A DNA stretch of 30,693 nt from a virus. This document shows positions 8,403-26,893 of this stretch, piece by piece. The stretch spans positions 1 to 30,693 of IMG/VR virus record IMGVR_UViG_3300025732_000182. One strand, written 5' to 3'. The notes beneath the pieces are model-generated. The model was not told the DNA's origin and made no database searches. It saw nothing but the letters and a program-made list of their open reading frames with translations. Position 1 is the first letter of the stretch. Every line of letters starts with the position of its first letter. A program made the position numbers and the translations under genes.

Positions 8403-8834
8403 CTACCCCCTAATGATTCCACCTATTATAGTCACGTTTATTTTGCCCTCTGTAAACTGAGCCGCAGAGGCCGCCACAGAAGCCGTAACTTTAACAACTA
8501 TTGTTTTAGCACTAACCGCTTCTTTTGTGAGTGTAGATAAATACTGTCCTACAGCTTGTACGCCGTTAGTTGTGCCATATTGAGTATCCGTGCTACCATC
8601 ACCAAGAAGAATTTTACCACCTTGAGACAAACTAGAACATGCTACTGTTACAAAGCCATTACTAGCATGTAAGAAAGCGTTATCGGGTAAAGTAATAGTT
8701 TTATCTCTGCCGCCAGCAGAAACTGTAACCGTACGAATAAATGCCACACCTGCTTGTGTGTTTAATGTAGACCCCTGCCCATTATCGGGACCACCTACTG
8801 ATAAAATAGGAAATGTTGTTGAACCTGCTGTCAT
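8403..8834 (-). CDS. Structural protein of unknown function (143 aa)
   Basis: The ATG at 8834 follows TAAGGA at suitable spacing. The protein is rich in Gly, Thr, Ser and Val and has the look of a beta-sandwich virion protein. No domain is recognised. It is the first gene after the capsid-distal hairpin, so its expression may be lower than that of the capsid protein. Candidates are a capsid accessory or decoration protein. Confidence 0.6.
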   Translation of the reverse strand: MTAGSTTFPILSVGGPDNGQGSTLNTQAGVAFIRTVTVSAGGRDKTITLPDNAFLHASNGFVTVACSSLSQGGKILLGDGSTDTQYGTTNGVQAVGQYLSTLTKEAVSAKTIVVKVTASVAASAAQFTEGKINVTIIGGIIRG

Positions 8835-8853
8835 TTTAAATGTCCTTATGTAA

Positions 8854-8875
8854 AGGGGGAGAATTAACTCCCCCT
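8854..8875 (-). terminator. GC-rich hairpin after the major capsid gene
   Basis: A perfect 8-bp inverted repeat (AGGGGGAG / CTCCCCCT) with a 6-nt AT loop stands out in an AT-rich genome, 24 nt after the capsid stop codon. On the minus strand only three T follow the stem, so it would be an imperfect intrinsic terminator. It may partially stop transcription or protect the 3' end of the capsid mRNA, keeping capsid protein more abundant than the downstream products. Confidence 0.6.
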
Positions 8876-8899
8876 AATTAATTGAGTAAAATCAATATA

Positions 8900-9799
8900 T
8901 TAAGCCCCAGCGGTGCCATATATACATCTCCAATCATCGAATCCAGTACTGAATCTTGTAGATGTTTTAATCTTCAAGTTATCAGTAGCAAAGTCGTTGT
9001 CTTTCTGTATTTCAGCAGCACGTCTACGGAAGAACTTCAGTTTAGAAGGGTTGTTGGTCATTAAGAACCAAGCATCCTGGTCTGTTATAAAGTTAGTCGT
9101 AACAGGCTTAATGTTCATATTAGATATAATATTAACATCGTTGTTGCCAGTTTGAGTTTCGTACTGAGTTTCAAGAATCTTCCTAACTGTAAAGTATAAA
9201 CTTCTACCAGTTACAATTTTCTCTACTTCAGTATTAAGCCTTAAACCTTGGTCGTCACGGAAGTCTTTAACGTCAATAATACCTTGCTCTAGTGAAGTCT
9301 GAACTAAGTCAGCTGCGCTAGATGGTGTATTAGAACCTGTTCCTCCTGTGCCTACCAATGGGTGAGACGCGCTAATTAAAGATACGCCATCAGGACCAGT
9401 AGTTGAGAATGCGTTGTTAAGAATGTTAGTAGCAACGATTTCCTCAGTCTGTCTCATTGATTCAGCAAGTAGACGTGGAATCTGGTTGATTTGATTGTAT
9501 AAATCATCTTCAACCATTTCCCTAGTTACCACGCCACCTATTGAATAGGTAAGGTGCAAGAACTCTTGCTGGAAGCCTTGGAACATTTGCGAGAATACCG
9601 CCTCTTGGCCTTGCTCTTTAACCGCAGCTAAAGGGAAGCCTGTTAAGCCTTGTACTTTCTCAAACGCTTGTTTACTGGTCATTACGTCCATGAACTCAGT
9701 ATACATCGTTGGATGTCCATCATACCTAGTACCATAGATTTCTTTAATACCAGGCCATAATAGTTCGGCAAAATTGCCGGTTGTCATTACTGCTGCCAT
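8900..9799 (-). CDS. Major capsid protein
   Basis: The ATG at 9799 follows an AGGAG site. The 299-aa product begins MAAVMTTGNFAELLWPGIKE and continues with a pattern (YDGHPTMYTEFMDV, SIGGVVTREMVEDD, then a helix with MRQTEEIVATNILNN) that fits HK97-fold major capsid proteins of the Mu gpT-like type. The SASHPLVGTGGT segment near residues 142-153 is a common hallmark of such capsid proteins. The gene lies after scaffold and decoration candidates and before the hairpin at 8854-8875. Being about 300 aa with no separate protease gene nearby, it probably assembles on the scaffold without an encoded maturation protease. Confidence is high for role, moderate for subfamily. Confidence 0.88.
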   Translation of the reverse strand: MAAVMTTGNFAELLWPGIKEIYGTRYDGHPTMYTEFMDVMTSKQAFEKVQGLTGFPLAAVKEQGQEAVFSQMFQGFQQEFLHLTYSIGGVVTREMVEDDLYNQINQIPRLLAESMRQTEEIVATNILNNAFSTTGPDGVSLISASHPLVGTGGTGSNTPSSAADLVQTSLEQGIIDVKDFRDDQGLRLNTEVEKIVTGRSLYFTVRKILETQYETQTGNNDVNIISNMNIKPVTTNFITDQDAWFLMTNNPSKLKFFRRRAAEIQKDNDFATDNLKIKTSTRFSTGFDDWRCIYGTAGA

Positions 9800-10945: not shown

Positions 10946-11857
10946 CTAGGTCATTAATTGTTTCTGGCGCGCGTATCTTTCAGGTGAAATACCCATATTA
11001 CGCGCTACATTTATTTCTGCTTGCGTTAGTCTAACTGTAGTTTTGGTTGGTGCATTATTGCTTTCAGATGACAATACTGAGGTATGTGCATTATTTTTTT
11101 TACCCCTAAGGCGTTCATCCATTACATCCATAATAGTTTTAATATCAACTTGTTTCCCAGCCGCCGCAAACTCCTTAGGAATGCTTTCAAATAACTCTAA
11201 AGCTTTATCGTTATCTGGATGCCCATCATAAAGATAACCCCTTAAAGGTTTTCCAGTCACGTCTTTTTCGGCAGCTATCACTTCAAGATAAGCCGCATTA
11301 CGAAGATACTGCGCCTCAAATTGTTGCTTTTGCGGGTCTACTCTTGGCTTAAGCTCTGGTTTTTCAACTGGTATTTTCTCAACCAATCTCTTTTCTAACT
11401 TTAAATCCAGCAATCTATCTTCTATGGATTCTATAGCTTCATAATCATTTTCCTCCCTTGCGATACGCAATTGTGTTTTAAGGTCAGACTCGATCTTATT
11501 TACAGCTGTATTTTTATTTTCTTGCTCAAACTTATTAAGTTTCTCTTGGTATTCAGCAAGTTTTTCTTCCATGAGTTTATTATGCTCAAGTATCGCCTGA
11601 TTACGCGCATCAGAACCCTTTACCTGGCGATAAAGATCATTAATGCGTTCCTGTACCTTTGGGTCATCTGTTTTTACAAACTCTGTACGTCTTGGTTCTT
11701 TTGGGGTTTCTATAACTACATCCACATCTGGAGTAGCTTCTGCAATAACCTCTACTTCTGGTTCTGCTTCTTTAGATATAGGCTTTAGGGATTTAATAGC
11801 CTCGCTAAGTTTGTTTTCAGCGGTGTCTATTGCTTTTTGGGATTCTATATTACTCAT
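10946..11857 (-). CDS. Capsid scaffold candidate (303 aa)
   Basis: The ATG at 11857 overlaps the GroES stop by 8 nt. The sequence is strongly charged and mostly helical. Residues about 10-75 are acidic, with Pro/Glu/Val repeats. Residues about 80-150 form a long predicted coiled coil (KLAEYQEKLNKFEQENKN). The C-terminal end is basic (NMGISPERYARQKQLMT), as in scaffold proteins that bind the capsid through a basic tail. The spot between portal and major capsid is the usual place for a scaffold. Function is inferred from composition and position. Confidence 0.75.
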   Translation of the reverse strand: MSNIESQKAIDTAENKLSEAIKSLKPISKEAEPEVEVIAEATPDVDVVIETPKEPRRTEFVKTDDPKVQERINDLYRQVKGSDARNQAILEHNKLMEEKLAEYQEKLNKFEQENKNTAVNKIESDLKTQLRIAREENDYEAIESIEDRLLDLKLEKRLVEKIPVEKPELKPRVDPQKQQFEAQYLRNAAYLEVIAAEKDVTGKPLRGYLYDGHPDNDKALELFESIPKEFAAAGKQVDIKTIMDVMDERLRGKKNNAHTSVLSSESNNAPTKTTVRLTQAEINVARNMGISPERYARQKQLMT

Positions 11858-12131
11858 ATACTACCCCCAGCAAATCTTCGTCTTGGCACATAAAATATTC
11901 TTCGTCTTTAATCTTTGTCCAAGCCCCTGAGAACTTAGCAAACATTACCTTTTGGCCTACTAGGTCTTTTAGTACATCATCGCACGTATGGCCTAACGCA
12001 ACAATTATTCCTTCTTCTTTATTGTATTTACCAATAGCTTGTTCTGGTAAAATAATAGAACCCACCTTCTCCTTTTTTTCTCGTTTCAATAATACACGCG
12101 CAAACAAAGGCGTGAACGGTATCTTACTCAT
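11850..12131 (-). CDS. groES: Phage co-chaperonin GroES
   Basis: The ATG at 12131 follows GAGGAAAAG. The 93-aa product fits the Cpn10 family over its full length: an N-terminal PLFARVLLKREKKEKVGSII strand-loop, a mobile-loop hydrophobic triad (IIL, residues 26-28) that docks on GroEL, a central KYNKEEGIIVALG turn, and a C-terminal EDLLGVV close to the canonical end. It lacks a companion GroEL gene in the window, so it would work with the host chaperonin, as T4 gp31 does. Its position just before the scaffold and capsid genes suggests a role in folding capsid protein. Several residues differ from cellular GroES, as expected for a long-resident phage copy. Confidence 0.88.
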   Translation of the reverse strand: MSKIPFTPLFARVLLKREKKEKVGSIILPEQAIGKYNKEEGIIVALGHTCDDVLKDLVGQKVMFAKFSGAWTKIKDEEYFMCQDEDLLGVVYE

Positions 12132-13047: not shown

Positions 13048-15225
13048 TTAAGAGGAAATCTGCGTGTTTCGTTGGTCTAATGGAACTCGTTCAAGTACCC
13101 CTTCACCAGGTATCTCTCCGCTTCCTTCAAAACCTCCGCCTGTCCCCGGTATCGCTCCACTTTCTCCAGGGGGCATGTCAGAAGCCCCTCCGCCCAATTG
13201 AAGTTGTTGTTCAAGTGCTGCAAGAAATGCTTCGTCTCCGGTTTGCGCTTCCATACCTCCCAACTGTCCCTGTCCATTGAATACTCCATGCATTTGTCCG
13301 TATAAAAAAGCCACATGTTTTTGTTTATGTAGCATTAAAGCTTGTAATCCTTCTGGTGATATATCTATTTTACCAGTTCCCATTTGTTGTTTTTCTAGCC
13401 CTTTTAGTAATTCGTTTATTATTCTAATATGCGTTGCGTGGTCTTGGTCTGGGAATACATCAAATAATGGCCTTTCTTGCGGAGGCATAAGAAAAAACAT
13501 ATTTTCCTCATACTGGTCATCTATCCTTTCTGGTTTTTGTTCTTCTGGCTTAGGTAAGATTAAATCTATATCCTGAACCTCCATAGATTCTAAAGTTTGC
13601 TTAGTTATAACGTAAACAGAGTTTTGATTCTGTGCAATTATGGGGTTTTGCATACCTAATTGATATACACTCTGCGCTTTAGCCATCTTTTGTTGTTTTG
13701 TGACCGATCTTGGATCCATAATAGGGAATATCCTAGTTGCACCCTGGAAATCTTCCCTAGTAACGCTAACTTTTTCCTCTTCGTTAGTAAATGTTTGTAT
13801 AGCAGGGGCGTTATCTTTTACTATGTTAAATATCTTCTCAAGCTCACCTTCCATAGCTAAGGCTAAATTCTCCATAATAGAGCTTGGCATTTGCAAGCTT
13901 TGCTCTAACATAGTTAAAATAGTCATAGGCTGATAAACTTTAGACACATCACCGCTTACCGCTTCCGTAGTATTGGACAATCTCTGTATAGTAGATTGCA
14001 TAAACTCGATAAGACCAACATACGCGGTATTAGGCCCCGGAAAGTTCATTTGATAAATTGCTTTGCTTAAATCATCCGCTGTGCGTGGAACTTTGGTAAA
14101 CTTACCTATAGGCGACTCAATCTCACCGCCTTTTATACCAATATTCTCAGATATAAAACCGCCCATATTACCAGCATTTGCCAACTCTCCTGCATCCAAA
14201 GAGTTACGCAACATTTGGTTTAATGATTGGTTTAATTTGGCAATAAGATGCCCGTAACCAAAACAATAAAAGCCGTCAGTGTTATCTATAAAACCGTAAT
14301 GTGTAAAATATTCTATAGGGGTTTTTTGGTCATCATCTATCTTATATCTTGCGGCAATCCTAAGCACCCTTTCGCTATTATCATCTACCCATATAATAAC
14401 TGGCTCTTCTATCCCATCGCCATCTAAATCATACCAAGTGTGTTGTTCTAAAATAACAACGGATTTACCCTCTTTCCCTACTTCATGCATACCTTCCGCA
14501 TCATCTTCAACATCCTGCATATCTCCCATGTCTTTAAAATTAACATCAGATTCAACAGGTAATTTACTAAAAAACCCATCACGGTATAATTTTTTTGCTG
14601 TATTAAAATCCATAGTTATGCGGTGGGTCTTTCTCCGCACATCCTCTAACTCGCGCGGTCCAGTCCCATAACAGACAATAAAATCTTGCGCCCTTACTCT
14701 TTCTACTTTAGGTAATCCAGTTACCGGGTCTGGATAAGTCTTACTAAAATCGCTACCCATTAACGCCGCAGCTAACAACATTCTTTTTTTGTCTCGTTTA
14801 TATCTACGCTGTCTAAAGTTTAAATCGTAATTCATCCATTTAGCCAAGCGTTCAGCGCGTTGTTGTTCCTCCGGGGTATTATCTTCAAGGGACGTGGTAG
14901 AAACAAATGACCTTTGCGGGAATATAGCTTTATATGCCCTAGCTTGGAAACCAAGGCATGATTCTGTCAAAAGAGGCACTCTTGCATCAGCTGAGTTAAA
15001 ATCACTAGAAAAGTTATTATCATAATTATCTATTTGATGATAAATTTCCAGATATTCCGCATGCTTTGATAACCAATCCGCACGACTTTCGTCATCTTCT
15101 TTGGTTAAAGAACAAACCTTTTCCCCTAATATTTGCAATTCCTTAGGTTCAAAATGAGGAGCTAAGTTTAAAGGGTCTTTGCGCCTTGGTTTAATCTTAG
15201 TCTCTTCTTTTGTTTTGTTACGCAT
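13048..15225 (-). CDS. Portal protein
   Basis: I use the ATG at 15225 (MRNKTKEETK), which overlaps the end of the upstream gene by 8 nt; a TTG in frame just before it is less likely. The 725-aa product has an acidic and basic N-terminus, then the typical podovirus portal region, including DWLSKHAEYLEIYHQIDN, DARVPLLTESC, and AERLAKWMNYDL. An elongated helical middle follows (LNQSLNQMLRNSLDAGELAN). The C-terminal 80 residues are Gly/Gln-rich. Length fits the large P22-like portals. The dodecameric portal is the DNA entry channel and binds the terminase. It begins the head module, separated from the terminase by the glycan cassette. Confidence 0.9.
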   Translation of the reverse strand: MRNKTKEETKIKPRRKDPLNLAPHFEPKELQILGEKVCSLTKEDDESRADWLSKHAEYLEIYHQIDNYDNNFSSDFNSADARVPLLTESCLGFQARAYKAIFPQRSFVSTTSLEDNTPEEQQRAERLAKWMNYDLNFRQRRYKRDKKRMLLAAALMGSDFSKTYPDPVTGLPKVERVRAQDFIVCYGTGPRELEDVRRKTHRITMDFNTAKKLYRDGFFSKLPVESDVNFKDMGDMQDVEDDAEGMHEVGKEGKSVVILEQHTWYDLDGDGIEEPVIIWVDDNSERVLRIAARYKIDDDQKTPIEYFTHYGFIDNTDGFYCFGYGHLIAKLNQSLNQMLRNSLDAGELANAGNMGGFISENIGIKGGEIESPIGKFTKVPRTADDLSKAIYQMNFPGPNTAYVGLIEFMQSTIQRLSNTTEAVSGDVSKVYQPMTILTMLEQSLQMPSSIMENLALAMEGELEKIFNIVKDNAPAIQTFTNEEEKVSVTREDFQGATRIFPIMDPRSVTKQQKMAKAQSVYQLGMQNPIIAQNQNSVYVITKQTLESMEVQDIDLILPKPEEQKPERIDDQYEENMFFLMPPQERPLFDVFPDQDHATHIRIINELLKGLEKQQMGTGKIDISPEGLQALMLHKQKHVAFLYGQMHGVFNGQGQLGGMEAQTGDEAFLAALEQQLQLGGGASDMPPGESGAIPGTGGGFEGSGEIPGEGVLERVPLDQRNTQISS

Positions 15226-16885
15226 CAAAATTTAACCTTTGTATATAATCTTCAAGTTCAAGAGCTTTTGAATTAGCCTTTTTTTCCATTTCTTGCATAT
15301 ATAGTTTGTGACGTAGTTTGTTCCTCCATACCCAAGGAATCATACCGTCACCGTGTATTTTTAAATTAAGTTTCTCCCTTAAAAAGTAGTAATTCCTAAA
15401 TTCCTGTAATTGAGCAAGGAATTGTCCTTCTGTCCAAAAAGTACGTTTAATCTTTTTTGGTCCATAAGTTTCTACTTCAAGGGTAACTTCTTCGTACTTC
15501 ATAGTACCATTATCTTTCTTTTCCTGCAAATCTGGCTTAGAATAGTAAGAACAATCATAACCGAACAGCTCCATATTACGAAAACCTAAACCCTCTAAGA
15601 CAGATATACCCCTTGTGGAAGTAGCCGAACCTCCTACTATCAAACAATCACCGTTACTTAAGAAATCTTCCTCATGCGCGCCTACTGCGACATGGTATCC
15701 TATGACTTTAGCTTTACGCTCCAACAATCTTTCAGTAACAATCGGATCTACCATTGACGCAACAAACACTAATGAATCTGGGTGGATGTCATCAGTGAAA
15801 TTTGCTACATGTGAGCGCGGGTCTAACAAAATAACAGCCCAAGGAATTATGCCAGCCTCATGTAATGGTTTAATAGCGTGCTTTACAGCTACTATCTTAA
15901 TCCCATTATCATAATACTCCTTAACTTGTATGGGGTCTAAAGATGGCCCAGCACTGCAAATAACAATAGTTTCGTCTGTTTGTTTGCATGGCGCGTACCA
16001 ATTACGGATTAATCTTACATTCTTGGAAATATTATTTCGTATGACTTCCTTATCTACACAGTTTTTAGTTTTAATCTTTATGTCGTTAACATCAACCGCC
16101 TGAGGAATTATAGGTTCCCCGCTACGCATTTGCTGAATTTTTTGCGCTAACGCTAATTTAGCTGGCGCACCTTTAAAATGCTCCATAGTTTCGCCAAGGA
16201 TAGATATATTAAATACATCACGCCCTTCTATACCTTCTGATATGTTGTGATATGTGAGGCTAGAGAACTCTTCACGTAATCTATCAAATATATAACTATC
16301 GTGGTATTGCTTATGTGATAATACCTCATCTTTTACATACATTTCATGGAATCGCTCTATGAATTGTCCTGCTGTTTCTGTTTTATAGATAACGAGACCA
16401 CATTCTGAATGGTCCCAATCTTTGCGCCCTAAATAAGATATATCGGCTCCATTATGCCATTTCTCTATATCTTCTACTGTTACCTCAGATTTAACCATAA
16501 TATCAGCATCCAACCAGATAATGTAATCCACGCCATTTTGTTTGGCAAATAAGTAGGCCTGATAAAGAGCAAATATCTTATGGGAGAAATCTATGTAATT
16601 AGTCCTGTAATCACCTTCGTTTTTATAATCCTTGTGACGTGTGTAAAAATCAGTTTCGTCTTTTGTTGCGCCTGTCTCTATATGAATTAATCTACCTTCT
16701 TTAGCACCTACATTATTAATCAAGTTATCTAGGCTTTTACTAACTACTTCACTCAAATCATCTTTGTATATTTTTATAAGCAAAGGTATTTCAGTAGGGA
16801 AGTTCTGCAAATAAGATACAGTGCATACATTTAAGTATTCGTACCAATCTTTATTAGGGAACGTTGTTATTGTTACGTATTTCAT
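15218..16885 (-). CDS. GT-A glycosyltransferase fused to a DUF115/MptE-like domain
   Basis: Two domains are visible in this 555-aa protein. Residues about 1-240 look like a GT-A glycosyltransferase, with IIWLDADIMV (DAD at 126-128) as the metal-binding DXD and an ECGLVIY segment near 161-167. Residues about 300-530 match DUF115-type domains (found in flagellin-modifying Maf proteins and MptE-like proteins). These show VICSAGPSLD (308-317) and the stretch 418-447 with GGSATSTRG and a hydrophobic LFGYDCSY end. Maf-type domains transfer nonulosonic sugars to proteins. The fusion suggests one protein that carries out two sugar-transfer steps. Acceptor and donor are unknown. It ends the glycan cassette and overlaps the portal start. 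The upstream site AGGATTAATC supports the start at 16885. Confidence 0.8.
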   Translation of the reverse strand: MKYVTITTFPNKDWYEYLNVCTVSYLQNFPTEIPLLIKIYKDDLSEVVSKSLDNLINNVGAKEGRLIHIETGATKDETDFYTRHKDYKNEGDYRTNYIDFSHKIFALYQAYLFAKQNGVDYIIWLDADIMVKSEVTVEDIEKWHNGADISYLGRKDWDHSECGLVIYKTETAGQFIERFHEMYVKDEVLSHKQYHDSYIFDRLREEFSSLTYHNISEGIEGRDVFNISILGETMEHFKGAPAKLALAQKIQQMRSGEPIIPQAVDVNDIKIKTKNCVDKEVIRNNISKNVRLIRNWYAPCKQTDETIVICSAGPSLDPIQVKEYYDNGIKIVAVKHAIKPLHEAGIIPWAVILLDPRSHVANFTDDIHPDSLVFVASMVDPIVTERLLERKAKVIGYHVAVGAHEEDFLSNGDCLIVGGSATSTRGISVLEGLGFRNMELFGYDCSYYSKPDLQEKKDNGTMKYEEVTLEVETYGPKKIKRTFWTEGQFLAQLQEFRNYYFLREKLNLKIHGDGMIPWVWRNKLRHKLYMQEMEKKANSKALELEDYIQRLNFDA

Positions 16886-16887
16886 GA

Positions 16888-17049
16888 TTAATCCTTTATC
16901 TCTGCGAAATATTTATTATTAGAATTTCTGTAAGTATTAATAATTAATCCTAGATATTTATTACCAATTTTGTTTAATTTGCCGTTACTAGTTAGATAGA
17001 CAGCGTGTCCAATTAGGGGTATATATTCCGCCTCACATTCGCAAATCAT
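16888..17049 (-). CDS. 53-aa hypothetical protein in the glycan cassette
   Basis: The ATG at 17049 overlaps the cupin stop as TAATG, and the stop lies 2 nt before the next start, so it fits the operon exactly. The product, MICECEAEYIPLIGHAVYLT and on, contains GHAVYLTSNGKLNKIGN followed by LGLIINTY. This order recalls the 'GdaVyl..dGkv...iGvv' strands of capsid cement proteins, but the match is short and could be chance. It has no membrane segment. Function unknown. Confidence 0.65.
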   Translation of the reverse strand: MICECEAEYIPLIGHAVYLTSNGKLNKIGNKYLGLIINTYRNSNNKYFAEIKD

Positions 17050-17375
17050 TATTTTCTCTCAATATCGTCTTCAGTTACTTTCTTTCCGTATTGTAGCTCT
17101 AAGGCGTAAACTGGTTCTCCTGAAAACGCCATAAAAGTGTGCCATGTATTAGGTTTAATTTTCCAAATCTGAAAAGGGAATGCACACCATTCAAATGTTT
17201 GAGGTTCACGCACTCCCCACCCCTTAATAAACCACCATATTTCAGTTCTATGTTTATGTCTTTGTAACGATAATTCTCCTCCTGGCTTAAACCTCAACAA
17301 CTTTACACAAAACCAAGGTGTCCGCATCAAAGTAGCATACCATCCCCAATTACGTTTCTTTGGCCAATTCAACAT
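17049..17375 (-). CDS. Cupin, mannose-6-phosphate isomerase type II-like
   Basis: The ATG at 17375 follows GGAG. The 108-aa single-domain protein has the cupin pattern: FKPGGELSLQRHKHRTEIWW (His residues for metal), a strand-rich middle and NTWHTFMAFSGEPVYALELQ (second motif). It resembles the C-terminal cupin of bifunctional mannose-1-P guanylyltransferase/mannose-6-P isomerases, which make mannose precursors. Whether it isomerises a sugar or binds one is not known. Its neighbours are sugar-transfer and nucleotidyl-transfer genes, so a sugar role is likely. Confidence 0.8.
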   Translation of the reverse strand: MLNWPKKRNWGWYATLMRTPWFCVKLLRFKPGGELSLQRHKHRTEIWWFIKGWGVREPQTFEWCAFPFQIWKIKPNTWHTFMAFSGEPVYALELQYGKKVTEDDIERK

Positions 17376-17658
17376 AAAAACTCCAAATTATTACTCCAAC
17401 CGAAACCTTGAGCACTGCTATTGCATAAGCATTTCTTTCATATAATAAAAAAGGCAATATTAATAAAAGAGGTAAAGTTTTATAAACCATTTTATTTTGT
17501 ATCTTCTTTTGTCGCACCTGAAATAAATACTGCTCTCTTTCTTTTAAATTTTTAATCGCCCAATACTCACCCCTAGTTTGCTGTCTGTCTCCTAAAGTTT
17601 TAGTTATAATAAATATCGCTACTATAAACCCAATAAATCCGGAAATCATTTCAACCAT
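17350..17658 (-). CDS. Small membrane protein with three likely TM segments (102 aa)
   Basis: Starts at 17703, 17658 and 17649 are possible. I prefer 17658 (MVEMISGFIGFIVAIFIITK), which overlaps the upstream stop by 8 nt. Predicted membrane segments are at about residues 4-22, 60-73 and 78-95, with a charged KNLKEREQYLFQVRQKK linker between the first two. It overlaps the cupin gene. Holin, sugar-lipid carrier or anchor protein are all possible. Size and topology fit a holin, but the position inside the glycan cassette fits a membrane partner for glycan synthesis. Uncertain. Confidence 0.6.
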   Translation of the reverse strand: MVEMISGFIGFIVAIFIITKTLGDRQQTRGEYWAIKNLKEREQYLFQVRQKKIQNKMVYKTLPLLLILPFLLYERNAYAIAVLKVSVGVIIWSFYVELAKET

Positions 17659-18130
17659 GTAATCTATCTTCTTCAATAATAGCTTGACTAAAATCAAACC
17701 CATTAGACCACCTTGCTAATAAATGGCTGCTACTTTGCGCGTTATTACCACCAAGGCCAAATATTACAGGAATATTAAGCTTCTCACATATATCTTGCTC
17801 TGGTGTATTTTTAGCAGTTCTATCGCCGCCCTTGCCAAATATTAGGAATCTATGTTTAAAGCCTATATGATTACGGATAGCTTCTATATCCTTAGATACA
17901 TCACTAAGCGTCGTTGATTCCCATATTGTTGTCACACCTTTTACAGTGTTAAGCACATCTGCTCTTTGTGTTAAAGACATGAACGCTTTGCCTTTTTTCT
18001 TAACAAGCCAGTCATCACTATTAAGAATGACGCATATCTCTCCTATCTCTGCAGCTTGCGCAAACATTTTAGCATGTCCGTCATGATACGGGTCGAACCC
18101 ACCACTAAGTAATACTATTGGTTTTTCCAT
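17651..18130 (-). CDS. Nucleotidyltransferase, cytidylyltransferase-like (HxGH)
   Basis: The 159-aa protein carries LLSGGFDPYHDGHAKMF (residues 7-23), the phosphate-binding H-x-G-H-like motif of the nucleotidyltransferase superfamily (PYHDGH). LIFGKGGDR follows at 96-104, then SSSHLL at 133-138, in the place of the ISS/T-T signature. This fits the family of RfaE/HldE C-domains, glycerol-3-P and other sugar-P cytidylyl/adenylyl transferases that activate a sugar or alcohol with a nucleotide. The substrate is not evident. It would feed the glycosyltransferases of the cassette. The ATG at 18130 lies inside the end of the FkbM gene (16-nt overlap). Confidence 0.85.
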   Translation of the reverse strand: MEKPIVLLSGGFDPYHDGHAKMFAQAAEIGEICVILNSDDWLVKKKGKAFMSLTQRADVLNTVKGVTTIWESTTLSDVSKDIEAIRNHIGFKHRFLIFGKGGDRTAKNTPEQDICEKLNIPVIFGLGGNNAQSSSHLLARWSNGFDFSQAIIEEDRLHG

Positions 18131-18774
18131 GTTAATATATAATCCTTTCTTACTTGTTGAACTACCTGCATACCCATTTGTTGTAGTATCTTTAATGCAT
18201 CATGGTTTGTGCGTTGCTCTACACATACCACGGGACGTAATGCATATAAAATTTTATCCATACCAAGAACGCAATCAGCTTCCATGCCCTCAGTGTCTAT
18301 TTTAACTAAGCATTCATGAGGTTTAATATCATACAATTCTATATCCCAATGGAGATGTTTGTTGTTTATAGGCTTAACAAATGGACCGCTTCCTTCTTTT
18401 CTAGGCAGCTTTTTAATAGTGACTGCCCCAGAATTATTTATATCTACTTCAACTATTTCCACAAACCTGAGTTCTTCGCTAACTCCATGCGCCCATAAAA
18501 AGCGTTTAATATCTTTATTATCCAAATTCTTTTCTAAGCATTCATAAGTTTTTAAATTAGGTTCGTACGCCTCTATTTTCTTAAATCCAGCCCTATGCGC
18601 CATCAATGACCATAACCCTACATGCGCTCCTATATCGTAAAATATCTTAGGCTCTTTCACATAAGATATAGCAGTGTCGAATATATCTTTCTGGTAATTG
18701 CCTTGTTCGTCAATCATCCCTAATTTAAAATGAGTATCGCTTTCGGGAAACCATACACCGCATACTTGTTTCAT
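18115..18774 (-). CDS. FkbM-family SAM methyltransferase
   Basis: The 219-aa product has the FkbM layout: IFYDIGAHVGLW (44-55) as SAM-binding motif I, AYEPN (69-73) for the ribose-binding acidic residue, and CLVKIDTEGME (155-165) as the family signature, ending in VVCVEQR. FkbM enzymes O-methylate sugars, polyketides or lipids. In this cassette sugar methylation is the likely job, which could cap a glycan or block a receptor. The ATG overlaps the upstream stop as ATGA. Confidence 0.88.
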   Translation of the reverse strand: MKQVCGVWFPESDTHFKLGMIDEQGNYQKDIFDTAISYVKEPKIFYDIGAHVGLWSLMAHRAGFKKIEAYEPNLKTYECLEKNLDNKDIKRFLWAHGVSEELRFVEIVEVDINNSGAVTIKKLPRKEGSGPFVKPINNKHLHWDIELYDIKPHECLVKIDTEGMEADCVLGMDKILYALRPVVCVEQRTNHDALKILQQMGMQVVQQVRKDYILTWKNQ

Positions 18775-19253
18775 GTGTAATGCCTCACAATCTTTATGTC
18801 CTTGTTAGTCTGCAACATCAATTCCCACCATTCTTTAGGCTTAATTGTTACGTGGACATTTTCGCCATTAGTAAATGTCTTTTTCGCTGGTTGCGTGGAG
18901 ATAGATAAAAACAAAACTTTATGCGTAAAAAACATTAACTCATGTAATACTTTACCTACATCGCTTTCTGGGACGTGTTCTAAAACATCAGTACATATTA
19001 CCATGTCAAATAACTCATCATCAGAAGGCTTTAAGTCATAAGGATAACAATAAGGGTCATACAAATACACTTTGTCGGCTAATTTCTCTTTATGGCACTT
19101 TGCCTTTCCGCAGCCGTAATCTAGGATGCTACGACAATCATACTCCTGTATTAACTTCTTTATCTCTGGCAAATGCATTTCTAGACTACCACCACCAAAC
19201 ATTTTCTTTTCGTGCATGCGGCGATATTCTGAGGCTATATACTCTTTATTCAT
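18771..19253 (-). CDS. Class I SAM-dependent methyltransferase (160 aa)
   Basis: Motif I is SILDYGCGKAK (42-52), a second acidic residue lies at YLYDPYC (64-70), and DMVICTDVLEHV (83-94) is the post-I/motif II region of the Methyltransf_11/23 type. The conserved-looking NVHVTIKPKEWWELM (132-146) gives the family a distinct tail. It is small for the superfamily but complete. Substrate unknown; it stands next to the FkbM gene and probably methylates another position of the same product. It overlaps both neighbours as ATGA. Confidence 0.82.
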   Translation of the reverse strand: MNKEYIASEYRRMHEKKMFGGGSLEMHLPEIKKLIQEYDCRSILDYGCGKAKCHKEKLADKVYLYDPYCYPYDLKPSDDELFDMVICTDVLEHVPESDVGKVLHELMFFTHKVLFLSISTQPAKKTFTNGENVHVTIKPKEWWELMLQTNKDIKIVRHYT

Positions 19254-19483
19254 GACTTTATTTCCTCCAGAAGCATATTAGCAAATTTATAAGCCTCTCC
19301 TCTTGGCATAGGAAAATCGAAACTTTGACCACATTTTTCAAATCTGAATATATAGCCGCCCTTAGTATCTCCAAGCACTTCTAAGCTCGCTCCTTTATCT
19401 GCGCTTGCTTGGTGTGCGAATCTAAAAAAACTAGTTCCTATAGAACCTAATATACAGCCAATGTTATTGCGTATCTTATTCAT
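19250..19483 (-). CDS. Hypothetical protein in the glycan cassette (77 aa)
   Basis: The ATG at 19483 gives an 8-nt overlap with the upstream stop; an alternative start at 19519 would add 12 residues and overlap by 44 nt. The product, MNKIRNNIGCILGSIGTSFF and on, has a short hydrophobic start but no clear signal peptide, then a TKGGYIFRFEKCGQSFDFPM segment. No domain is recognised. Position and coupling to the methyltransferase imply a part in the same operon. Confidence 0.6.
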   Translation of the reverse strand: MNKIRNNIGCILGSIGTSFFRFAHQASADKGASLEVLGDTKGGYIFRFEKCGQSFDFPMPRGEAYKFANMLLEEIKS

Positions 19484-20255
19484 ATTTAGTACTAGGTATG
19501 TTAGTAAATTCATTATCACAAGCGCGTTGCCAGTATTCGTATTCCTCTGTCCATAGTTGAGCGTACGCTACATCCTGCCATTCAGGAAACCACGGCCCAC
19601 CTAAAGTGTAATGGATCACATCTGGTTTAGCAGACTGGTAAGCTGAAATATTAGGCGATAACCCCTCAATCCAGTTATATGTCGAAGGTAAAGTACCAAT
19701 GTCTTTGTCTTCCAGCCAATTAAAAGCGTGCATATCGCCACCATTAGCCCGATTTACCATATCAATAGTAAGATGTTTATTCTTAGGATGTGCGCAGTTC
19801 CACAACACAAAACTAGACCAGTTCTTACGGTGATACTTAGTCTGCGGTTGGTCATCCATCTTAACAGTTTCAATAGGCTTTTGGTTATGTTTTACAACCA
19901 TACAAGCGTATTTATTATCGCATAGATCAAATAACTTCTTTGGATTGGATGTGAATATCATATCGCAATCCATAAACAACGCCCATCCCTTATATTCATT
20001 TAAATAAGGAACTAAAAACCTAGTATGTGAAAACTCTGTGCTAAATGGCTTAAGGTCAAACATATCAACCCTATTACCGTCATGCGCTTGAGTTAACCAA
20101 GGCCTATAAAATAAACCTTGTTTACGTAGCTCCTTATGTTTTAAAGGAATAATGTTTATATTAAACCTCTTAGCTTGACGTAAAATAGAATGTTTACATA
20201 CTTGATATGCTACATCTTCCCTTGCGTCCCATCCTATATATATATTATGCATGCA
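19476..20255 (-). CDS. DXD glycosyltransferase (259 aa)
   Basis: I use the ATG at 20255 (MHNIYIGWDAREDVAYQVCK) because GGAGG lies 7 nt upstream; the longer frame from 20276 would be internal to the previous gene. The fold is GT-A-like: the N-terminal IYIGWD strand starts the nucleotide-binding domain, FMDCDMIF (DCD at 95-97) is the metal-binding DXD motif, and SSFVLWNCAH is the usual acceptor-side segment. HYTLGGPWF near the end resembles a conserved HxxGxxPW tail of GT8-like transferases. Donor and acceptor sugars are unknown. Confidence 0.82.
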   Translation of the reverse strand, partial: CMHNIYIGWDAREDVAYQVCKHSILRQAKRFNINIIPLKHKELRKQGLFYRPWLTQAHDGNRVDMFDLKPFSTEFSHTRFLVPYLNEYKGWALFMDCDMIFTSNPKKLFDLCDNKYACMVVKHNQKPIETVKMDDQPQTKYHRKNWSSFVLWNCAHPKNKHLTIDMVNRANGGDMHAFNWLEDKDIGTLPSTYNWIEGLSPNISAYQSAKPDVIHYTLGGPWFPEWQDVAYAQLWTEEYEYWQRACDNEFTNIPSTKYE

Positions 20256-21015
20256 ATAACCTCCATGCCGTGCCATTCTTAATTTCTTCTAATGTGAATT
20301 GATTGTAACTTATAAACCTTAATAACTGGTCTACTCTCTCATTTGTCTCTGGTTGAATTTTATTATCGATAACATCTTGTAAAGTATTTCGAGACCAATT
20401 TCCCACTATACTATGCATTCCACTTACTACAGGAACTCCCTTAATCACAGCATCTACTGCAACATTACTATTAAATGTTATTACGCAACTAGCGTCCTGT
20501 AAATCATGTTCTAATGGTGACGTGTCTGATTTATGGCGCACCTTGAAAGACTTCCCATCTAAAACCTGTGTAATCTCTTTTTCCCACCAACCAGGTTTAT
20601 GTCCGTGGTATGCCTCCATATATTCCGAAGGAGGAACAACAAGTATACGTCCTTTTGAGTTAAACCACTCTTCGCGCTTAAACTTAAGCTTTTTTAACCT
20701 ATCGTCCCATAACCAATTTTCTACATACTTAGCTTGCAACCCATTCTTACTAATACGGTAATAGCCATCAAAATGCCCCGGATTGATATATCCACGGTCT
20801 ACCATATAATAATCAACACCATATTGTTCGTTGTGCTTAAATATATCACCTGTGCCACGAAGGATGCCATATCCTACAGCTGTATGCTTATTGGTGCTTT
20901 TGATATAATTATCAGCCCAACTAGTATGTTTGATGATATTTTCAGGAATACCGGCATGAAGGGCTTTACTTACATGCTCGTTGATGTGATGGTCAGTCTG
21001 CCATACGTAGATCAT
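20245..21015 (-). CDS. KpsC/LipB-like capsule polysaccharide glycosyltransferase (256 aa)
   Basis: The ATG at 21015 follows AAAGGATTAT, and the promoter lies about 70 bp upstream. Residues 1-90 form an N-terminal sheet-rich half. The C-terminal half has ITFNSNVAVDAVIKGVPVVS (about 184-203), the nucleotide-sugar binding pattern of Kdo-type capsule glycosyltransferases, near ILVVPPSEYMEAYHGHKPGW. The protein is shorter than full KpsC, matching single-domain relatives. Known members add Kdo to phospholipid at the start of capsule synthesis. The role here could be similar or altered. It is the first gene of the cassette and overlaps the next glycosyltransferase. Confidence 0.7.
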   Translation of the reverse strand: MIYVWQTDHHINEHVSKALHAGIPENIIKHTSWADNYIKSTNKHTAVGYGILRGTGDIFKHNEQYGVDYYMVDRGYINPGHFDGYYRISKNGLQAKYVENWLWDDRLKKLKFKREEWFNSKGRILVVPPSEYMEAYHGHKPGWWEKEITQVLDGKSFKVRHKSDTSPLEHDLQDASCVITFNSNVAVDAVIKGVPVVSGMHSIVGNWSRNTLQDVIDNKIQPETNERVDQLLRFISYNQFTLEEIKNGTAWRLLHA

Positions 21016-21047
21016 ATAATCCTTTCCGAACCACCAGAAAGTTATTG

Positions 21048-21079
21048 CCTAGCAAAGGTGTTCAAGCTACTACTAGGCG
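21048..21079 (-). other. 5'-UTR inverted repeat of the glycan operon
   Basis: GCCTAG at 21074-21079 pairs with CTAGGC at 21048-21053 across a 20-nt loop on the minus strand. It sits between the promoter at 21085-21113 and the first cassette gene. The stem is short, and a regulatory role is only possible. Confidence 0.3.
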
Positions 21080-21084
21080 AATTC

Positions 21085-21113
21085 ATTTTATCTTTTGCAA
21101 TTTATCGTGTCAA
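21085..21113 (-). promoter_or_regulatory. Near-consensus sigma70 promoter for the glycan cassette
   Basis: On the minus strand TTGACA (21108-21113) and TAAAAT (21085-21090) are separated by exactly 17 bp, one mismatch from full consensus. It overlaps the last codons of terL and lies in the largest gap of this stretch, about 70 bp before the first cassette gene. This would let the host RNA polymerase express the glycan genes independently of the upstream packaging genes. Confidence 0.78.
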
Positions 21114-22558
21114 CTATTTTTTCTCACTTGTCGTTTAGCTTCCTGTATAGCTGCTTTTAATCTATCGCCTTTAGTTGTGATATACGGACGTGATGCACAG
21201 GCATACTGTGTTTCATCATAGCAATGGTCTTCTTGCTCTGTATCGGGACCAAGTTCTGGTCTTCGTTCATCTAATTGCAAATCCGGCACTGTGCGCCACC
21301 AATGTTTACATCCAACCGTAACATACAACATGGGGCCATCATCGTCACCTGCTATTCTTGCCCTCACTTCCTCAAAGTTCCCTATTCTCCCTTTGCGTGA
21401 TTGCTCCATTAAAAACCTACCATTAGTCGCGTCATACATTCTTTGCTGCACACTTGCGCCGTCATGCTCTGCCCACATTGCCGCATCACCTACGCGGTAA
21501 TCCATTTCCTCCCCTGCGTCTTCTTCTATATCAAGTATCTGTTTCGCTATTACCGTACTTTCTAACCTACACCCTTCATTAGCTTTACCATTCCAGCCGT
21601 AATATTCACGATATCGGATTAAAGCTCCTCTTGGGATTAACCTTTCCTTCCAATCATCTTTGGCCTTTAAAGTCATATGGTCTTCTACCACACACCACCA
21701 ACCTACTGAAAAAGGTTTTGCACTTCCCCAGTCAATCACCATAAACTTAGTCCACTCGTTAGGCACTTCAAAATCACGTATCATATGCTTATCACGTCTA
21801 AGCTTCTCTAATGCCGCACCTGCTGTAATATCCCATAAACCATATCTCATAGCCTTGACAAGATCAGGCGAGCCTAATCCTTCAAGGCGCATCTCATAAC
21901 CTGGGTCACATTCTAATAAAGAGGGATTATCTTCTAAGAGTGCAGGGATATATTGACGCAACATCCCACCCTCTTCTGGTGGCATTCGCTTAACCTCGAA
22001 AGGTGTTAGCATGTCAACAAAAGTTTGCTTAACAAAAGTATGACCAACGTTACCGGGATTAGAACCGCAAATAATTTTAGGCAAAGTAAAATCTTCTCCG
22101 AAGATTTGTTTAATAATGGTAGGGATAGCAGGTGGCATACGCACTCGATTGCGAAGAAAGCGATATATAACATCAGTAAAATGGGTAAGCTCGTCAATAA
22201 GTAACACATGTATTTCTGCTCCTTGGTATTTATATCTGTCCTTTTCGTGTTGGCAATGGCATAAATGAATCTTAGCACCATTAGGGAATTTTATTTCATC
22301 TTCCAACACCGATACATTAGGAAATGTACTTAATAAATTCCTAAACCCGCTTTCGCCGTCTAAATGGTTAGCTAATAAGTCGGGTCTCAATCGCCTAAAA
22401 AGATATACCTGGATGTTTGGGATGTACACACATAGGAGAATGGCAATAATGCGTAATAGATGTGATTTACCACCACCAGCCGCACCACCGTATAATATCT
22501 CAGTGGCTTCAGTTTCTAATACAAATGTTTGTTTGGGATGAAGGTTAAAATTTACCAC
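21110..22558 (-). CDS. terL: Terminase large subunit
   Basis: The ATPase half shows Walker A GGAAGGGKSH (24-33) and Walker B VLLIDE (118-123), then a coupling segment CGSNPGN (164-170). The nuclease half has VIDWG (D276), RVGDAAMW (D358) and EDHCYDETQYAC (442-454), which supply the metal-binding acids of an RNase H-like fold. The 482-aa length is typical. It moves DNA into the head using ATP and cuts the concatemer. The frame opens with a GTG at 22558 that overlaps the upstream gene; GGAG lies 8 nt before it. The gene normally precedes portal directly, but here it is separated by the glycan cassette. Confidence 0.96.
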   Translation of the reverse strand: MVNFNLHPKQTFVLETEATEILYGGAAGGGKSHLLRIIAILLCVYIPNIQVYLFRRLRPDLLANHLDGESGFRNLLSTFPNVSVLEDEIKFPNGAKIHLCHCQHEKDRYKYQGAEIHVLLIDELTHFTDVIYRFLRNRVRMPPAIPTIIKQIFGEDFTLPKIICGSNPGNVGHTFVKQTFVDMLTPFEVKRMPPEEGGMLRQYIPALLEDNPSLLECDPGYEMRLEGLGSPDLVKAMRYGLWDITAGAALEKLRRDKHMIRDFEVPNEWTKFMVIDWGSAKPFSVGWWCVVEDHMTLKAKDDWKERLIPRGALIRYREYYGWNGKANEGCRLESTVIAKQILDIEEDAGEEMDYRVGDAAMWAEHDGASVQQRMYDATNGRFLMEQSRKGRIGNFEEVRARIAGDDDGPMLYVTVGCKHWWRTVPDLQLDERRPELGPDTEQEDHCYDETQYACASRPYITTKGDRLKAAIQEAKRQVRKNS

Positions 22559-22926: not shown

Positions 22927-23463
22927 TCAATTTACATCTACACCTAGCTCATTAAACCTAAAACTAGGCACGAAGTGTTTGTAAAAGTAATCCTTAGCCT
23001 CTGGTAAGTGTTGATTCATTATATCTAATACATATACCTTATCACCTAGTCTTGCAGTTAGGATTAAATGAGGCTTACCATCATAATCACCAGACCATAG
23101 GTTAAGTTCTTCTGGTTTCCAACCTAACGCGCGTAGCTCGTAATACTTAGTTGTAGCATAAGCCTTGCAATCAGCTTCCGCCGTCATATAAAATTGAGTT
23201 GGTGTCATCCAAGGTGATAATGCAAATAATCTCTTACTGTTAACCCTATCATTAACCATTCTAAGTTTATCTAACGTAGGTTTGCCACGGCCAGATATAA
23301 TCTTTTCAGTCTGTAATATCCTAACCCAATCAGGAACTATTACTTTCATTTGCGGGTCTTTGTCTATTTCTCTAGCATAGTTCTGTACTCTTTCTATATG
23401 CGTAGGATGTCCTGCATAGGCCGTTAGGGGTAATAACATTAATGCTATGATTAAATACTTCAT
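22927..23463 (-). CDS. Secreted transglutaminase-like cysteine peptidase (BTLCP, Peptidase_C93-like)
   Basis: The first 18 residues (MKYLIIALMLLPLTAYAG) form a Sec signal peptide with likely cleavage after AYA. The mature part keeps a transglutaminase-type triad: Cys99 in EADCKAYATTKYYELRALGW, His132 in DGKPHLIL and Asp147 in VYVLDIM. This matches the bacterial transglutaminase-like cysteine peptidase family (BTLCP). The family's substrates in bacteria are mostly surface or periplasmic. In a phage, export plus a Cys-His-Asp triad makes an endolysin or cell-envelope enzyme possible, and no other lysis enzyme is seen in the window. The start overlaps the terS stop as ATGA. Confident in family, not in role. 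Confidence 0.8.
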   Translation of the reverse strand: MKYLIIALMLLPLTAYAGHPTHIERVQNYAREIDKDPQMKVIVPDWVRILQTEKIISGRGKPTLDKLRMVNDRVNSKRLFALSPWMTPTQFYMTAEADCKAYATTKYYELRALGWKPEELNLWSGDYDGKPHLILTARLGDKVYVLDIMNQHLPEAKDYFYKHFVPSFRFNELGVDVN

Positions 23464-25678: not shown

Positions 25679-25800
25679 ACTACTTTTAATTGATCCTCTA
25701 TTTCTTTTGCTTGTTTTTTAGTTATTTTTATCGGAATTCCATTTTTAATTACAAGGTAAAATGTCTTATCCATAACATCCTGTATAATTTCAATCTTCAT
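25675..25800 (-). CDS. 41-aa hypothetical protein after promoter A
   Basis: ATG at 25800 follows AGGAG and lies directly after the duplicated promoter-operator module (copy A). The product, MKIEIIQDVMDKTFYLVIKN and on, is a compact mixed alpha/beta small protein. Its position behind a putative operator suggests repressor-controlled expression. Unknown function. Confidence 0.6.
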   Translation of the reverse strand: MKIEIIQDVMDKTFYLVIKNGIPIKITKKQAKEIEDQLKVV

Positions 25801-25801
25801 A

Positions 25802-25927
25802 CCATTCTCCTATTTATTGTCTTGATTCCCCTATAATACACCTATTCTTGACGCCGTCAAGAGTTATTTCAATAAATATCTATTTATTTCATTATACCAC
25901 ATTAACTATATGATTTATATAAAATAT
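25802..25927 (-). repeat. Duplicated promoter-operator module, copy A
   Basis: About 126 bp that match 26318-26438 closely, with identical tails of 37 bp. Contents in transcription order: the end of the preceding small gene, a -35/-10 pair, an operator-like dyad, and an AGGAG ribosome site. The two copies differ by small indels and base changes, which shows they have diverged since duplication. Confidence 0.85.
25833..25861 (-). promoter_or_regulatory. Promoter A with dyad operator
   Basis: TTGACG (25855-25860) and TATTAT (25833-25838) are 16 bp apart on the minus strand. A 15-bp perfect dyad, CTTGACGGCGTCAAG (25847-25861), covers the -35 box, so a bound dimeric repressor would block RNA polymerase. 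The XRE protein at 30175-30534 is a candidate binder, by inference only. Confidence 0.7.
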
Positions 25928-26033: not shown

Positions 26034-26315
26034 TTAGGCTGCAAACATGCGGCGCACATCATTTAAACTCTTTGCGTAGAAACCATTCCTGTCTTCGTTA
26101 CCAAATTCTTCGTTACCAAAATATTCGTTCTTACCAGCCCACATGCGGCAACTAATGGTATTATTTTCTGTGTGTAAACGAACAGTAGCTATAGTCACGC
26201 CATTAGGCTGCGTAATTGTTGAAATAGTTGAAGCCATTATCTCGCGACCTTTCATACCTAGAAGATTTGCAAGTTTTGATTTAGCAGTAGAAATGATAAT
26301 TTTTTTGTTTTCCAT
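26034..26315 (-). CDS. Hypothetical protein after promoter B (93 aa)
   Basis: Two ATGs lie close together. The one at 26315 (MENKKIIISTAKSKLANLLG) has AGGAG at 7 nt, whereas the first, at 26321, is too close to that site. The body is mixed alpha/beta, with TISTITQPNGVTIATVRLHT and an acidic, Phe/Gly-rich stretch before a basic end. No domain recognised. It is directly behind the putative operator (copy B), so likely repressor-controlled. Confidence 0.65.
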   Translation of the reverse strand: MENKKIIISTAKSKLANLLGMKGREIMASTISTITQPNGVTIATVRLHTENNTISCRMWAGKNEYFGNEEFGNEDRNGFYAKSLNDVRRMFAA

Positions 26316-26317
26316 AT

Positions 26318-26438
26318 CCATTCTCCTATTTGTTGATTCCCCTATAATACACCCATTCTTGATACCGTCAAGGGTTATTTCAACAAATAATCAATTATTT
26401 TATTATACCACATTAACTATATGATTTATATAAAATAT
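26318..26438 (-). repeat. Duplicated promoter-operator module, copy B
   Basis: About 121 bp, matching 25802-25927 with small indels. Its upstream part contains the last codons of the 155-aa gene, so each copy begins inside a different preceding gene. Confidence 0.85.
26344..26372 (-). promoter_or_regulatory. Promoter B with dyad operator
   Basis: TTGACG (26366-26371) and TATTAT (26344-26349) are 16 bp apart. The dyad is CTTGACGGTATCAAG (26358-26372), which keeps the outer CTTGA...TCAAG half-sites of copy A but differs in the centre, as expected for a repressor that reads the half-sites. Confidence 0.7.
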
Positions 26439-26893
26439 CCTTCATCTTGCGCTAATTTATGTAATGGGGAAACATGATTTAATGCGCTTGCATCTATCTT
26501 GTCGAAATCTTCTATAGTCTCGTAACCTTTATTTATTACACTCCCTAAAGCGTCTAATACTTGGTAAATTTCATCAGATATAATTATACCCCCTGCCTCT
26601 ACTAGACTTGTCGCCCATCCTGTAACTGCTAATAAATACTTACGTGTGCAAAACTTATTTTTACACATGTACGAACCTACCTTACGTACAAACCTATCCA
26701 TACGGTTATACAATCTAGCCCTACGTTTAGGGTCACGGGTGGAGAAGGACTTCTCTACCTCTTCTTGACAAATTTGTAATGCTTCTTTTATCTCATCGTT
26801 GTTAGTATTGTTAAAATGCATCTTTAGTAAAGTAGCTAATAAAGCTGGAATAATTGCATCTTCTATTAGTTGTTTGTCTGAAGCGTATGTCAT
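26426..26893 (-). CDS. Helical hypothetical protein (155 aa)
   Basis: The ATG at 26893 overlaps the upstream stop as ATGA. The product is mainly helical, has DPKRRARLYNRMDRFVRKVG as a basic region near residues 54-73 and two Cys around 77-82 (CKNKFC). No enzymatic motif is seen. Expressed with its neighbour. Unknown function. Confidence 0.65.
   Translation of the reverse strand: MTYASDKQLIEDAIIPALLATLLKMHFNNTNNDEIKEALQICQEEVEKSFSTRDPKRRARLYNRMDRFVRKVGSYMCKNKFCTRKYLLAVTGWATSLVEAGGIIISDEIYQVLDALGSVINKGYETIEDFDKIDASALNHVSPLHKLAQDEGYFI

Follow-up and report, generated by a model that had tools for sequence, protein, structure and literature searches.

Between the genes for the terminase large subunit and the portal protein, a clade of uncultivated short-tailed phages (podoviruses) carries a glycan cassette that, judged from gene order and phylogeny, is an ancient and fixed part of their late gene order. 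We describe it from a virus record of 30,693 bases (IMG/VR record IMGVR_UViG_3300025732_000182, hereafter the window), in which ten minus-strand open reading frames (ORFs), J, I, H, G, F, E, D, C, B and A, lie between terL (21110..22558, minus strand; the upstream border) and the portal gene (phrog_1216; 13048..15228, minus strand; the downstream border), both identified by PHROGs matches. The cassette is real, non-random, clade-wide and position-fixed, and a function is plausible: we would give about even chances that it is an old, vertically kept block of the late (head) operon that glycosylates the phage's own virion. Glycan genes in phages are usually treated as patchy cargo, whereas here a cassette is a fixed, lineage-defining late-gene part, with a terL-portal interval of 3.6-6.6 kb, and sugar decoration looks built into these phages' workings rather than an optional extra. 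An earlier note on this DNA had recognized a glycan-acting phage cassette at this place; the ORFs, their strand and their families are borne out by profile matches, folds and motifs, and only its count of nine genes needs correction to ten, namely two glycosyltransferases, a glycosyltransferase fusion, two methyltransferases, a nucleotidyltransferase, a cupin, a membrane protein and ORFs of 53 and 77 aa.

Relatives were found by searches with terL, A, I and the portal together with local hidden Markov models. The portal count covers 45 distinct viral loci that have a related portal preceded by at least 2 kb of sequence, from a search seeded with cassette-bearing sequences and made with portal peptides only. 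A lies directly upstream of the portal in 44 of the 45, usually overlapping it by 3-108 nt; the sole exception (L308) has the most diverged portal, preceded at a distance of 9 nt by a large ORF that looks terminase-like to the eye. I and usually J lie nearer terL than A, and the middle varies. Every one of the 31 distinct complete terL-portal intervals contains I and A, and 30 contain J, the J of one locus (L185) being counted from a separate search result. The middle is modular: E, C, a GDP-mannose 4,6-dehydratase-like (Gmd-like) gene and MT5 occur together in one group and F and/or G in others, with single occurrences of an epimerase, a phosphomannomutase-like HAD protein, a GT9 enzyme, a radical S-adenosylmethionine (SAM) enzyme, a flavin adenine dinucleotide (FAD) oxidoreductase and further methyltransferases.

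Cassette carriers form one side of a single branch of the portal tree, with support of 100/100 (IQ-TREE). Outgroups with related portals (22-29% identity; the cultured or complete genomes vB_Af_QDWS535, ct2G2228, ct2os315, CRP-902, HTVC023P, DSL-LC04, Pag-Yong1, Caulobacter RW and ctpbd312) have no cassette, and in them terL adjoins the portal or one or two unrelated genes lie between. Since the cassette is present in nearly all portal loci and its carriers form one fully supported clade, we regard it as lineage-defining and not as a recent insertion. The description of the block as "inserted" is therefore given up. In relatives it occupies the same terL-portal place, with intact genes that are not scattered over the genome; the scattering and decay that the earlier note would have counted as refuting did not occur. 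The tree is most simply read as a single gain in the clade ancestor, with ancestral loss outside the clade as a possible alternative. Distances correlated with those of the portal for J (rho = 0.71), the major capsid protein (0.66), A (0.38) and I (0.28; permutation, all P ≤ 0.005). The mutual correlation of A and I was 0.53, above that of either with the head genes, which suggests that these transferases are sometimes exchanged inside the clade.

J (256 aa; 20245..21015, minus strand) is a GT-B-like glycosyltransferase with the fold of KpsC/WbbB, retaining transferases of β-3-deoxy-D-manno-octulosonic acid (Kdo), in which the nucleophile motif is missing. Its predicted model (predicted local distance difference test, pLDDT, 88) matched KpsC, WbbB and KrkA (families GT107, GT99 and GT140) with a Foldseek E of 5.8e-6, and the whole model reached VIA Z 8.2-11.1 over 204-232 residues against these three, versus at most 7.7 for other GT-B chains, with KpsC the best match (VIA Z 11.1, 219 residues). 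J had no Pfam match in the profile search, a single divergent J scored weakly against PF05159 (15.7 bits, cut-off 20), and profile-profile comparison with Capsule_synth proteins was not significant (hhalign E = 0.08). Retaining β-Kdo transferases require a QxxxD motif and usually (K/R)xHP (PMC12887879, PMC10148158, PMC9587256), and QxxxD, with its nucleophilic Asp, is absolutely conserved among them (PMC12887879). None of 23 J proteins has QxxxD at the equivalent strand, which reads ILVxPPTxY or VIPLTGA, whereas the Capsule_synth reference proteins carry it in the same comparison; the CMP-binding (K/R)xHP motif is absent from all 23, with an invariant Lys (K162, (R/K)xK) in its place. On the acceptor side, J carries YGILRG...DxGY, with the Y, G, R and D positions invariant, which aligns with WG...EDGF of KpsC-like proteins in a low-confidence profile alignment. 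The KpsC likeness proposed earlier thus stands for the fold and fails for the motifs; we reject J as a true Kdo transferase, and its mechanism, perhaps also its donor, must differ. With J, a small group of enzymes of unusual mechanism gains a divergent branch that is without the residue this mechanism requires.

A (15218..16885, minus strand; overlapping the portal gene) joins a GT-A domain (residues ~1-243, with an invariant DAD) to a Maf/MptE (DUF115) domain (~278-523), with a pLDDT of 87 and a predicted template modelling score (pTM) of 0.53. It scored 71.4 bits against PF01973, MptE-like/DUF115 (cut-off 34.6, residues 284-448), and its C-terminus matched the Maf structure 5mu5 at Z 21.1 (root-mean-square deviation 3.2, 222 aligned residues, 19% identity), the next best match being 14.9. 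Maf enzymes O-glycosylate Ser/Thr of flagellin, and some accept CMP-Neu5Ac and CMP-Kdo (PMC11339370). A resembles these flagellin O-glycosyltransferases in its C-terminal domain, which folds like the central Maf domain, but it has an N-terminal GT-A domain where they have their other domains. This N-terminus matches many GT-A enzymes, including GT6/GT8-like ones, and reaches Z 14.3 against the PBCV-1 capsid-glycosylating enzyme 2p72. Bacterial genomes yielded only N-terminal relatives of A, apart from one full-length copy on a contig of a metagenome-assembled genome (MAG). That contig (L309; QZKR01000020.1, Myxococcales MAG SURF_8; 50118 bases) matches the equally long IMG/VR contig behind L195 and is probably the same sequence; it is probably a virus contig inside the MAG, or else a hint at the host.

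The remaining genes are likewise all on the minus strand. I (19476..20252; ORF open to 20276) is a GT8-like GT-A glycosyltransferase whose match to GT8 PF01501 is marginal (24.6 bits, cut-off 24.3) and whose match to phrog_28018 is strong (6.5e-58), with a DxD invariant in the five proteins compared. E (17651..18130) is a cytidylyltransferase-like nucleotidyltransferase (PF01467, HxGH), whose relatives with solved structures include glycerol-3-P and ethanolamine-P cytidylyltransferases and which is also related to HldE-C. C (17049..17375) is a stand-alone mannose-6-phosphate-isomerase-type cupin (PF01050, 51.1 bits, cut-off 23.6) that falls below the cut-off of the full-length GMP_PMI equivalog, which a lone cupin would not be expected to reach. 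F (18115..18774) is an FkbM-family methyltransferase (PF05050) and G (18771..19253) a SAM-dependent methyltransferase (phrog_24759). Sequence searches of the PDB with A, I, J and C profiles returned no relevant relative. Loss of catalytic residues in homologues, which the earlier note would have counted as refuting, did not occur: DxD in I, DAD in A, HxGH in E and the cupin H/E/H residues in C are kept. Against L082, a relative with 82% identity in terL, the cassette ORFs are mostly under purifying selection (nonsynonymous divergence, dN, 0.12-0.31; synonymous divergence, dS, at least 1.6 or saturated). Three small ORFs are not kept in L082 and may be accessory: lineage-specific B (53 aa; 16888..17049), lineage-specific D (a 117-aa membrane protein with two predicted transmembrane segments; 17350..17658, open to 17703) and H (77 aa, no family; 19250..19483, open to 19519 from GTG). 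Comparison with relatives probably places the starts of I, H and D at 20252, 19483 and 17658, and with starts so placed most neighbouring ORFs overlap by the 1-16 nt reported before.

A sigma70-type promoter, TTGACA-17-TAAAAT (21085..21113, minus strand), overlaps the terL stop codon and has 11 of 12 consensus matches, where ~0.002 such sites would be expected by chance in that intergenic gap on that strand. The TTGAC box just past terL is retained in L082, L002 and L004 despite otherwise diverged leaders. The near-consensus promoter described earlier is thus present, but it is probably not the cassette's alone: a scan of the terL-J and A-portal gaps found no terminator-like site, so that it may also serve the portal and head genes downstream. 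At the J ribosome-binding site, the hairpin CTTTCTGGTGGTTCGGAAAG (21022..21041, minus strand) is conserved and nearly invariant in four relatives, and the form CTTTYYGGTGGTTCGGAAAG is retained in L082, L002 and L004 (one pair shorter in L002); its near-invariance suggests translational control of the operon. A second hairpin (21047-21078, minus strand) is shared with L082 alone, and leader folding beat that of shuffled sequences (z of -2.2 and -2.4). A search of viral contigs for the leader motif GGTGGTTCGGAAAG was uninformative, a 14-mer being too short, and an Rfam scan of the window found no known RNA.

Assembly of the glycan in the cytoplasm is a well-supported inference. In the mechanism that we favour, J, I and A would build a short glycan there, and the middle genes (nucleotidyltransferase, cupin isomerase, Gmd-like dehydratase, FkbM and other methyltransferases) would supply or cap clade-specific sugars. 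The cassette would be transcribed late, with the portal and head genes. During assembly the Maf-type domain of A would place the first (or a) sugar on Ser/Thr of a phage structural protein, an attachment step modelled on Maf acting on flagellin; J and I would extend or cap this protein-bound sugar, and the resulting glycan coat would alter adsorption, stability or recognition of the particle. No transporter and no protein with three or more transmembrane (hydrophobic) segments was found in 57 cassette loci, duplicates included. This absence, the fixed place among head genes and the varying sugar-tailoring middle together make the phage's own particle the most likely acceptor, and the divergence of J with the portal, the Maf-type domain and a J-I block with a DUF115 protein in Caulobacter phages favour the same reading.

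The cultured Caulobacter jumbo phages CcrColossus and C1 carry homologues of J and I side by side, with a DUF115 protein and a methyltransferase nearby, but the block lies after the tail genes, between tail and lysis genes, and DUF115 is not fused to GT-A. CcrColossus gp126 is MptE-like (E = 1.5e-7, just below cut-off), and gp128 (K4JVV7) is a fold match. With a fixed cassette, glycosylation of virions can be tested directly in environmental phages, and these J-I blocks offer a laboratory model. Mycobacteriophage capsids carry glycans in Che8 and Rita (Freeman et al. 2023, cited in PMC11256854), and there too phage glycosyltransferases are thought to decorate the virion. The Che8/Rita glycan was shown chemically, whereas that of the present cassette is predicted, and in their relative Maravista the glycosyltransferases lie near the genome 3' end and not between terL and portal.

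Several observations weigh against a virion target. The late position could be merely a tolerated cargo site. An integrase was present in two of six clade genomes searched, which makes lysogenic conversion possible for some of these phages. The weak tracking of the portal by A and I indicates a partly separate history, and they hardly track capsid-protein distances (0.15 and 0.05). DUF115 also takes in the pterin kinase MptE (A matched 8sd5 at Z 14.9), and jumbo cyanophage glycan clusters have been read as O-antigen modifiers (review PMC7824862). A bolder version, in which the whole clade obligately glycosylates its particles through a cytoplasmic Maf-type protein O-glycosyltransferase and J as a new nucleophile-less Kdo-fold family, with sugar addition a part of head assembly and its genes placed within the head operon, is possible but less likely than not.

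The earlier note left host remodelling, receptor blocking and virion glycosylation unranked; the evidence now leans to virion glycosylation. The strongest competitor, a serious contender that we rank below virion glycosylation, is that the cassette remodels host surface glycans (lipopolysaccharide core, O-unit or capsule) late, blocking other phages or the re-adsorption of progeny to debris. The fold of J is that of capsule and O-antigen Kdo transferases, the middle genes are variable, and the gene content resembles the jumbo cyanophage O-antigen-modifier clusters, in which a cupin sugar isomerase, a HIGH-superfamily nucleotidyltransferase, an epimerase/dehydratase and several glycosyltransferases also stand together (PMC7824862). 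Those clusters, however, are sporadic and polymorphic in large phages, and the O-antigen reading rested on that sporadic presence, whereas here presence is fixed between terL and portal throughout a diverse podovirus clade. The multi-transmembrane flippase and polyprenyl/GT-C transferases of gtrABC-type serotype conversion have no counterpart in the 57 loci, where no flippase, polyprenyl-linked or multi-transmembrane enzyme was seen. Surface conversion is classically tied to the lysogen phase, of which the window's phage gives no sign, no tyrosine integrase having been found in it. Also in favour of host remodelling, an I homologue in Synechococcus phage S-SCSM2R lies near kdsA and kdsB, and KdsA-like ORFs lie near I/J in three marine contigs (L102, L105, L109). 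The S-SCSM2R region (209814-213339; L464 5815-9340) hints that some phage relatives of the cassette may use ulosonic-acid donors, but Kdo biosynthesis genes are absent from this clade's cassettes, so that the linkage elsewhere is a lead only.

It is improbable that the target is neither a surface glycan nor a virion protein but some other molecule of the phage, either its DNA bases or a small diffusible compound. Phage glycosyltransferases can act on hypermodified bases, the DUF115 relative 8sd5 is a pterin pyrophosphokinase, and some cassettes contain radical-SAM or FAD-oxidoreductase genes; against this, no base-hydroxymethylating or nucleotide-hypermodifying gene was recognized in the cassettes (the rest of the genome being partly annotated), and a sugar isomerase, a Gmd-like protein and FkbM are partners typically seen with glycans. 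Recent arrival of the block as a moron (accessory cargo), free to be lost, is very unlikely and rejected for the core J-I-A, for although cassette GC (36%) is slightly under that of head/tail genes (40%), A is there in 44 of 45 loci, carriers form one clade, and third-position GC of J, I, A, E, C and F resembles that of portal and terL; the small ORFs B, D and H may nevertheless be recent acquisitions.

Of 76 I loci in which no clade portal was detected, a set that includes a few short clade contigs cut before the portal, 38 have J no more than 4 kb from I, and in 32 the two are adjacent. In Mosig EXVC030M, homologues of the A N-terminus and of I occur together with two J homologues. Among open-access papers we found no description of this terL-portal cassette.

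A 42,950-base contig (L001/L332) extends the window (match 99.95-100%), and its ends join at window 26356-26490, which implies a circularly mapped genome of ~42.8 kb. These ends fall at an imperfect direct repeat of ~131 bp (window 25798-25927 and 26313-26438, 87%). Between terS and terL, a transglutaminase-like cysteine proteinase (BTLCP, PF06035; window 22927-23463) is kept in L082 and L004, and shortly after the portal a 93-aa GroES/Cpn10 co-chaperonin (PF00166, E = 3.4e-14; window 11850-12131) occupies the same place in cassette-less relatives too. On L332, a probable tail fibre of 1183 aa (14392-17943), which begins with a region containing short collagen-like runs of G-x-y, lies downstream of the ejection proteins, and two ORFs (5785-6081 and 8615-9769) consist of simple repeats of GSGDGYG and AASSGxxSK type.

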